Notes under the pieces: generated by a model
Database searches by the model: none
Told to the model about the DNA's origin: nothing
Seen by the model: the letters and a program-made list of their open reading frames with translations, nothing else
Origin: Thermoplasmata archaeon
GTDB lineage: Archaea; Thermoplasmatota; Thermoplasmata; Halarchaeoplasmatales; Halarchaeoplasmataceae
Assembly (NCBI GenBank): GCA_003553085.1
Contig: PUPH01000104.1
Coordinates: forward strand, 1 to 40,889
Length of the DNA stretch: 40,889 bases
Direction: 5' to 3'
Made by a program: the position numbers and the translations under genes
Shown: positions 23,548-26,586 of the stretch, piece after piece
Layout: each line of letters begins with the position of its first letter
How positions within the stretch are numbered: position 1 is the stretch's first letter

Positions 23548-24318
23548 ATGCGAGAATTCAATCCCTGGTGGAAGGGAAAATTCAGACTAGACTACAAACC
23601 GAGGGAGATCTACCACGAGATAAAGGATCTTATGTTGGACCCTCTGATCATAGCTCTGATGGGAAAGGCTGAACAGAGGAGGATAAGGATATATGTGGAG
23701 GAAAATATGGTCGAGAAAGTGATATACCGGGACCTGAGTACGATCTTCCAAACAAGAGCCACGGGGATACTGGAATCCATACTCAAGATACTGATGAGAG
23801 AACCGGGACATATGATAAATATCAAGGATCTAAGCGAAGATCTGGGAGTTTCTAGAACCACTCTCTCCAACTACTTGACCTACCTCGAAAAAAGTTTCCT
23901 GATAAAAAAACTATATAATTATTCAACAAATCAGCGGAAAACAGAGAGGAAACTTAGAAGATTCTATCCTACAGTACTCTCGAGCAGCTTACTGTTCAAA
24001 GAAGGAACTCACCCCCAGTCTCAAGTTTTCGAGTGGCTTCTGGCAAACCAACTTGAAACTGATTTCTTCTGGAGAGACGCATACAAAAACGAGGTAGATT
24101 TTGTCATGACCTCGGGTAACAAGGTCGTACCTGTCGAAGCAAAATACGGTAAGATAAAAACGAGTGGTCTGGAAAAATTCATGGATAAGTTCGATGTGAG
24201 CGAAGGCTGGATCCTGACCAATGATACTGAGAAGATCATAGAGAAGGACGGTAAAAGGATCTACGTAGAGCCCGCGTATAAATTCCTGTTAAAAGGTTCA
24301 TATCTCAAGAGGCTCTAG
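23548..24318 (+). pseudogene. Internally deleted AAA ATPase (DUF4143-like): N-terminal NPWW segment joined in frame to the wHTH/nuclease-like C-terminus
   Basis: MREFNPWWKGKFRLDYKPREIYHEIKDLMLDPLIIALMG stops where GxxxxGKT is expected and continues with KAEQRRIRIYVEENMVEKVIYRDLSTIF...LSEDLGVSRTTLSNYLTYLEKSFLI...NEVDFVMTSGNKVVPVEAKY. Confidence 0.7.
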
Positions 24319-25034: not shown

Positions 25035-25064
25035 TCCACCTGTGGTGTAGACTATTTAAGTAAC

Positions 25065-25146
25065 ACTATTGTAATCGTAGATATGCTACAAAATTATACT
25101 ATTACAATAGTAAGAAAATGAGTATTTACCACTATTACAACCGTAA
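25065..25146. promoter_or_regulatory. Three operator-like repeats at exactly 33-bp spacing upstream of the AAA ATPase
   Basis: ACTATTGTAATCGTAG (25065), ACTATTACAATAGT (25098), ACTATTACAACCGTAA (25131); TATA-like CTTTATATC at about 25148. Confidence 0.75.
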
Positions 25147-25179
25147 TCTTTATATCTAAAACAAGGACTATATCCTTTC

Positions 25180-26586
25180 ATGGTATCGAAAGATGACATC
25201 ATGGGTGAATTGGTCCGGACTAATTATTGGTGGGAAACGGGTAGTGTCAGAGCATTGGACCTAGAGGAATATCGGAGGAACATGTTTACCGATCTTGTAG
25301 ATGCTCTGGAGGACAAAGAGATATGTGGCATTATCGGTCCTAGAAGGACTGGAAAAACAACATTGATGTATCAATTGATCGATCTTTTATTGGAAAGGGG
25401 CGTGGAGCCTAAGAATATAATGCTGTTCACATTCGACAACCCATTGATGTGTGAAGACGAGGGGGTAATAGAAAAGATAGTCCATATCCACGAGGAGATC
25501 TATGGTATCACAGATAAACGTTACATTTTTTTTGATGAGATACAATATGTTAAGGACTGGAGCAGATGGATAAAGAGTATCTATGATAAAAATATGAACA
25601 TCAAATTCGTGGTATCGGGATCTTCCGGTAAACTGATTTATAAAAACACCTCTGAAAGCCTAACTGGACGGATATCTTTTTTCGAAACTGATCCTTTTTC
25701 TTTTGGAGAATATTGCTGTTATAAGGGAAGCGAAGGATTGAAAAGTTTCTTAGAGGGTCTTGATGACGGTAATTCTGATCCACTGACGGTCGATCCATAC
25801 GAACTAAATCTAAAAATTAAACATCATGAGAAGGAATTGAAGAGATTATTCAATGATTATATACTATACGGTGGGATCCCGGAAACTTTTGATAAGGAAC
25901 TATCTAAAGCTCATAAGTGGTTAAGGCAGGATTATGTGGGTCTTGTTTTCTACCGTGATCTGATTGAACTATTCGATATAAGAGATACTAGAACACTTGA
26001 AGAATTATTCTATTACATAGCTAATACTCACGGGCAGAGGGCTAATTATTCAAAAATTGGGGATATGTTAGATTGCAGGATCGAAACCGTAAAAACATAT
26101 CTGGGTTATCTCGAAATAGCGGGTTTGATCAACATCATTGAATATTATTCTAAAAGTCCTAAAAGGAGTAAAAGAGCAGAGAAAAAATTATTCGTCTTAG
26201 ATAGTGGCGTTCTTAATGCGATAAAAGGTAACGATAAAAAGATATTAACTTATAGTGCGATCGTTGGTTCTATAGTAGAAGGTATCGTCTGTTCCCATCT
26301 CGTATCTGGTAAAATAGACATACTGCCCAAAAACGTATATTATTGGCGATCGGTCTACGAAGTCGATTTTGTAGTGAAGGAAAGGGATGGTCTTATACCT
26401 ATAGAAGTTAAATACAAAAACAACGTTGGTGAAAGTGACCTGAAAGGACTGATCAGTTTTATGGAGAAACACAACATCGAAGAGGGCATAGTGATCACAA
26501 AAGAAAAGTTCGAAGAAACAATCATAGATAATAATAAGATATGGTATATCCCTGTATGGTTTTTCCTACTGAAACCATATGGCTGA
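25180..26586 (+). CDS. AAA ATPase (AAA_14/DUF4143-like archaeal ATPase)
   Basis: CGIIGPRRTGKTTLMYQLIDLLL, YIFFDEIQYVKDWSRWIKSIYD, VVSGSSGKLI, ESLTGRISFFETDPFSFGEY, C-terminal WRSVYEVDFVVKERDGLIPIEVKYK. Confidence 0.95.
   Translation: MVSKDDIMGELVRTNYWWETGSVRALDLEEYRRNMFTDLVDALEDKEICGIIGPRRTGKTTLMYQLIDLLLERGVEPKNIMLFTFDNPLMCEDEGVIEKIVHIHEEIYGITDKRYIFFDEIQYVKDWSRWIKSIYDKNMNIKFVVSGSSGKLIYKNTSESLTGRISFFETDPFSFGEYCCYKGSEGLKSFLEGLDDGNSDPLTVDPYELNLKIKHHEKELKRLFNDYILYGGIPETFDKELSKAHKWLRQDYVGLVFYRDLIELFDIRDTRTLEELFYYIANTHGQRANYSKIGDMLDCRIETVKTYLGYLEIAGLINIIEYYSKSPKRSKRAEKKLFVLDSGVLNAIKGNDKKILTYSAIVGSIVEGIVCSHLVSGKIDILPKNVYYWRSVYEVDFVVKERDGLIPIEVKYKNNVGESDLKGLISFMEKHNIEEGIVITKEKFEETIIDNNKIWYIPVWFFLLKPYG

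Follow-up and report, generated by a model that had tools for sequence, protein, structure and literature searches.

In the window (the whole stretch of 40,889 nucleotides analysed here), three similar sequences, ACTATTGTAATCGTAG at 25065, ACTATTACAATAGT at 25098 and ACTATTACAACCGTAA at 25131, follow one another at a start-to-start spacing of exactly 33 bp. They lie ahead of the TATA box that serves an intact gene of the AAA_14/DUF4143 type (25180..26586, forward strand). On the forward strand, site 1 (ACTATTGTAATCGT, 25065..25078), site 2 (ACTATTACAATAGT, 25098..25111) and site 3 (ACTATTACAACCGT, 25131..25144) are centred at -81, -48 and -15, respectively, from the centre of the TATA box (TTTATATC, 25149-25156), which itself lies 27.5 bp upstream of the ATG, a distance from which a leaderless transcript is expected on sequence alone. 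Site 2 is a palindrome with perfect 6+6 arms flanking a central AC, and site 3 extends into the expected BRE. Within the 145-bp intergenic region (29% GC), the triple-repeat score reached 37/45 at lag 33, a value that none of 5000 Markov shuffles equalled (shuffle maximum 33), and no other tile came near it when the whole window was scored. Neither Rfam models nor a tRNA search matched anything in the window. The three-site array is real and beyond chance.

The original prediction had described three repeats in 33-bp steps, a near-perfect palindrome in the middle copy and a last copy abutting a TATA-like element. Positions and spacing were confirmed, the arms of the middle palindrome proved perfect, and the third claim is nearly exact, as TTTATATC starts a few bases past site 3. 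A related fourth copy, proposed at 25051 (ACTATTTAAGTAAC), is not supported and was dropped: the letters are present, but they are out of register, do not match the consensus, and have lost their ACT in a 93%-identical ortholog (G004). The suggested scan for the motif elsewhere showed that the array is the sole location of the 15-mer consensus, with 0-1 mismatches, in the assembly from which the window comes (1.8 Mb, 84% complete).

The product of the gene has 468 aa and exceeds the Pfam cut-offs for both AAA_14 and DUF4143. The PADLOC profile PDC-S01 covers residues 31-465 (E 4.7e-75), that is nearly the whole protein, whereas no PHROGs or NCBIfam profile matched it. The Walker motifs are intact (G53, G58-K59-T60, D119-E120), and K59 is found in 126 of 127 relatives. 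The AlphaFold2 model (mean pLDDT 87.7) comprises a P-loop ATPase domain with Walker A and a DE Walker B (residues about 36-195; 25285..25764), a confident winged helix (residues about 270-322; 25987..26145) with a recognition helix at about 301-313, which is the proposed operator reader, and a fold resembling PD-(D/E)XK nucleases (residues about 359-440; 26254..26499), all encoded on the forward strand. Where the domains begin and end, and which parts are called winged helix and nuclease, is our reading of the order of secondary structure elements and of the Pfam hits. E367, D396, E409 and K411 occupy the expected helix and strands of the model; the protein is therefore predicted to carry a PD-(D/E)XK nuclease-like fold with its active-site residues, cleavage itself being inferred. 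The solved structures nearest in fold are SSO1545, STAND proteins and Orc1/Cdc6 in complex with origin DNA. Among 127 family proteins, position 409 is E in 61 and Q in 54, and position 411 is K in 60 and C, T or S in 59; 32-34 bp arrays occur in both nuclease-motif groups (QxC/T/S, 20/42; ExK, 21/36). One study describes PDC-S01 as a fusion of an ATPase with a PD-(D/E)XK domain, ranks it fourth in frequency among prokaryotic defences, with enrichment in archaea, and states that experimental validation is pending for most such candidates (PMC12988326). The gene is, by inference, a predicted antiviral gene of a group that has apparently never been validated by experiment and whose mode of action is unknown. 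The defence-like element of the original prediction is supported to that extent.

A second family member lies nearby, outside the array (23548..24318, forward strand). This paralog has lost the ATPase domain by an in-frame deletion (residues about 46-212) and retains its N-terminus, an HTH_11 match, the winged helix and the nuclease-like part; an intact 441-aa homolog (L054) is present in the sister genome G005. It could represent either decay or a repressor-only remnant.

Orthologs of 93-99% identity retain all three sites. In two orthologs from another genus (G001 and G002, 67-68% identity), site 2, site 3 and the TATA box are retained and the spacers have diverged, site 1 being restricted to the window's own genus. 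Across five orthologs 11 nt of site 2 are invariant, and site 3 is invariant except for its first base in G002. The next gene upstream encodes a nitroreductase in the window's genus; in G002 it is kynureninase-like and in G001 of the ferredoxin type. Since the neighbours differ while the sites stay, the array must be assigned to the ATPase gene. Across the 16 genomes of the family, exact sites were found at the window orthologs and as one palindrome at a paralog in G009, other near matches being at the level of a reversed-pattern control. This 35%-identical paralog (L043) carries the window's middle palindrome, ACTATTGTAATAGT, beside its start (G009:C8:24145-24160), which may reflect a shared address or convergence.

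We then compared the upstream regions of homologs, whose layout is strikingly similar and whose sequence is not. One hundred genomes of the archaeal class were searched and 80 further loci were fetched; all lags between 16 and 89 bp were scored in the region from -220 to +40, homologs were grouped at 60% protein identity into 90 clusters, and ties were counted as 32-34 bp. The best upstream self-match fell at 32-34 bp in 50 of the 90 clusters, compared to 13 of 244 control genes drawn from these genomes (Fisher p 8e-23). Markov shuffling of the sequences upstream of the ATPase genes gave 11%. At least 12 of 15 matches at lag 33 were reached by 28.9% of the ATPase clusters versus 0.8% of the control genes. 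The excess persisted when clustering was done at 40% (about 15/27), and confident arrays were found in 12 of 17 GTDB families. A lesser peak was present at 42 bp. Palindromes were detected at p<0.05 in 14 of 48 arrays, where 2-3 are expected. It should be noted that this simple lag test finds no repeat at 32-34 bp in about 45% of the clusters, some of which carry repeats at 42 or 23 bp or single palindromes, that start codons were inferred, that the genomes are mostly MAGs and that the clusters are partly non-independent. The original prediction had named a lack of similar arrays at other ATPase genes as grounds for refutation; on the contrary, these results show that arrays with 32-34 bp phasing are a family-wide trait of AAA_14/DUF4143 genes and not a local oddity. 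Its suggested extension to DUF234 genes failed: ATPase_2/DUF234-type STAND ATPase genes of the same class have 33-bp arrays in only 3 of 27 loci, which is background, and the extension was rejected.

The repeated sequence, often palindromic, differs between paralogs. The second paralog of the window's own genome (contig C47) is preceded by a pair, GTTTrACAGTATGATAwCA, 33 bp apart, and this motif is absent elsewhere in that genome when up to two mismatches are allowed. In G042, a genome in one contig, the gene is preceded by three nearly identical palindromes spaced 42 bp apart, which occur nowhere else. Each of the three motifs tested genome-wide (window, C47 and G042) was thus found only before its own gene. 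When motif similarity was compared with protein and domain identity, it tracked protein similarity above 40% identity; below 40% no relation was seen and no single domain stood out. Assigning specificity to the winged helix by such a correlation was rejected, as the correlation is not winged-helix specific.

The arrays are also locked to the core promoter. In 22 of the 30 confident arrays with a good TATA box, one site is centred between -26 and -14 from the TATA centre, and its partner stands about 33 bp away, on the upstream side in 11 and on the downstream side in the other 11 (counts read off the table of the 30 arrays). Array sites accordingly stand near -50, -17 or +16 relative to the TATA box, and in the window as in the family the repeated sites overlap their own core promoter. 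TATA-adjacent sites would overlap the BRE and +16 sites would fall between the TATA box and the expected start. This geometry, known from sequence alone, is operator-like, and repression would fit it best.

Beyond the class, arrays of 32-33 bp precede plasmid-borne homologs in Haloferax, Haladaptatus, Methanosphaera and Methanomethylovorans, and arrays of 32-34 bp precede plasmid-borne homologs of the bacteria Persicobacter and Aliarcobacter. In the same plasmid-borne set, repeats of 22-23 bp were found in Collinsella and in the alphaproteobacteria Agrobacterium, Qingshengfaniella and Rhizobium; at these loci (L218, L220, L223 and L197) the repeats are direct or palindromic and separated by two turns, not 33 bp. 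The same lag test detected no array at several loci from haloarchaea, Thermococcus and other bacteria, and this set is small and without a matched control. Searches of viral contigs gave no conserved stretch with A1 and no relative with a Haloferax query. Haloarchaeal plasmid members (L195, L227, L228 and L229) lie beside genes for Cas3'', Piwi/Argonaute, or VWA and helicase proteins, which is a defence-island setting. An independent hint comes from Thermus, where TT_P0211 (AAA_14, DUF4143) was up 6.6-fold in the plasmid-bearing wild type, a rise not seen without Argonaute, and belongs to a 12-gene list of which many members adjoin CRISPR loci (PMC4406477). Since pTT27 has a single detectable family member, TT_P0211 is probably the gene of our locus L199. 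The induction requires Argonaute and could be indirect.

Taken together, the family-wide 32-34 bp excess, the private motifs, the promoter lock, the conservation in orthologs, the similar arrays beyond the class and the winged helix support a model in which the array serves its own ATPase gene as a cooperative operator. Each palindromic site would hold two winged-helix domains of the ATPase-nuclease, and the spacing of about three turns would place adjacent pairs on nearly the same face of the DNA, where their ATPase parts could touch. Site 3 stands against the TATA box and over the TFB recognition element, so that its occupancy would block TBP/TFB and the protein would repress its own promoter. 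An operator sequence proper to each family member would avoid cross-regulation among paralogs in one cell. Loss of occupancy, for example through invader DNA or an altered ATP state that draws the protein off, would induce the gene. We consider self-binding, phased-dimer autorepression the best explanation and a likely one, in the absence of binding or expression data. The array, its phasing, the promoter lock, the private motifs, their conservation and the domain make-up are shown; binding by the gene's own product, repression rather than activation, and induction by invaders are inferred. The same-face phasing and winged-helix autoregulation that had originally been predicted are supported to the same degree, binding remaining an inference.

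The alternative closest to this model is that the product binds its array and activates the promoter, recruiting TFB or polymerase upstream of the TATA box. Half of the promoter-locked arrays have both sites upstream of TATA (about -50 and -17), at positions open to archaeal activators, and for such arrays activation is also possible, which calls for caution on self-repression. However, the other half have a site at +16, between TATA and start, which is a repressor position, and a costly nuclease-like defence gene is, by inference, more often kept down; activation appears unlikely. It is likewise unlikely that the array is bound by some other regulator, whether linked or unlinked, through which the ATPase gene would be controlled. 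Binding by the ATPase has not been shown and the relation between motif and protein does not point to the winged helix, which leaves room for such a factor. Yet the motifs of paralogs differ and were genome-unique in the three tested cases, so that one dedicated regulator per copy would be required; the annotated plasmid loci have no recurrent neighbouring regulator, and the array stays with the gene although the neighbours change.

The sites could also be iterons or element ends, serving initiation, partition or mobility and read by an Orc1/Cdc6-like AAA+ protein. The Orc1/Cdc6-origin DNA complexes among the closest folds and the plasmid-borne copies speak for this, as does a second pair of the same motif, 33 bp apart, just past the stop codon at L035 (1405-1470). 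That pair precedes a metallo-beta-lactamase-fold gene in the same direction. Against this view, the sites keep a fixed position relative to TATA, the surroundings of the window array are chromosomal and metabolic and, among 41 confident arrays, a clear same-spaced 3' pair exists only at L035, and we regard it as very unlikely. Finally, chance repeats in AT-rich DNA could be invoked for an intergenic region of such low GC content, but the failure of all shuffles to match the array, its conservation in orthologs and a family 33-bp peak absent from controls all but exclude them.

A bolder reading of the autorepression model would make PDC-S01 a sensor, repressor and effector in one polypeptide, silent on its own array; we hold this to be conceivable but not yet probable. 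We are equally reserved about its second part, in which invasion, through competing DNA or ATP state, would free the nuclease and induce the gene, each paralog having a private address. In any case, the operator code provides a concrete biochemical handle on PDC-S01, with many genes each carrying its own predicted binding site. DNA binding, oligomer state and induction are directly testable in many members, and many protein-operator pairs could reveal a recognition rule for the winged helix.

No description of this architecture was found in the literature searched, most subscription journals and preprints being outside its scope. PDC-S01 as defined in PADLOC is the same sequence family, with ATPase and PD-(D/E)XK fold in one protein, but the passages on it that were consulted mention neither an operator architecture nor a DNA-binding role, and its candidacy rests on genomic association. 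BrxR, one of the BrxR/WYL-type regulators of defence islands, is a winged-helix protein that recognizes inverted repeats close to the promoter of its own gene and keeps defence genes repressed (PMC9122601). By contrast with the present family, BrxR is a separate regulator without ATPase or nuclease, and its two repeats lie 5 bp apart instead of forming palindromes spaced by three turns. Type II antitoxins, AbiEi and the controller (C) proteins of restriction systems autoregulate cooperatively via repeated palindromic operators; in these systems repression falls to a distinct small protein, whereas here regulator and presumed effector would be one polypeptide. Archaeal Orc1/Cdc6 proteins recognize ORB elements, repeated sites near their own gene. 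They are AAA+ proteins with a winged helix and a related fold, but lack a nuclease-like domain, and the array described here is promoter-locked and paralog-specific. What distinguishes the present family from these systems is that one AAA+ nuclease-like protein would serve as regulator and presumed effector, on an operator whose promoter-locked, three-turn layout is conserved and whose sequence is not.
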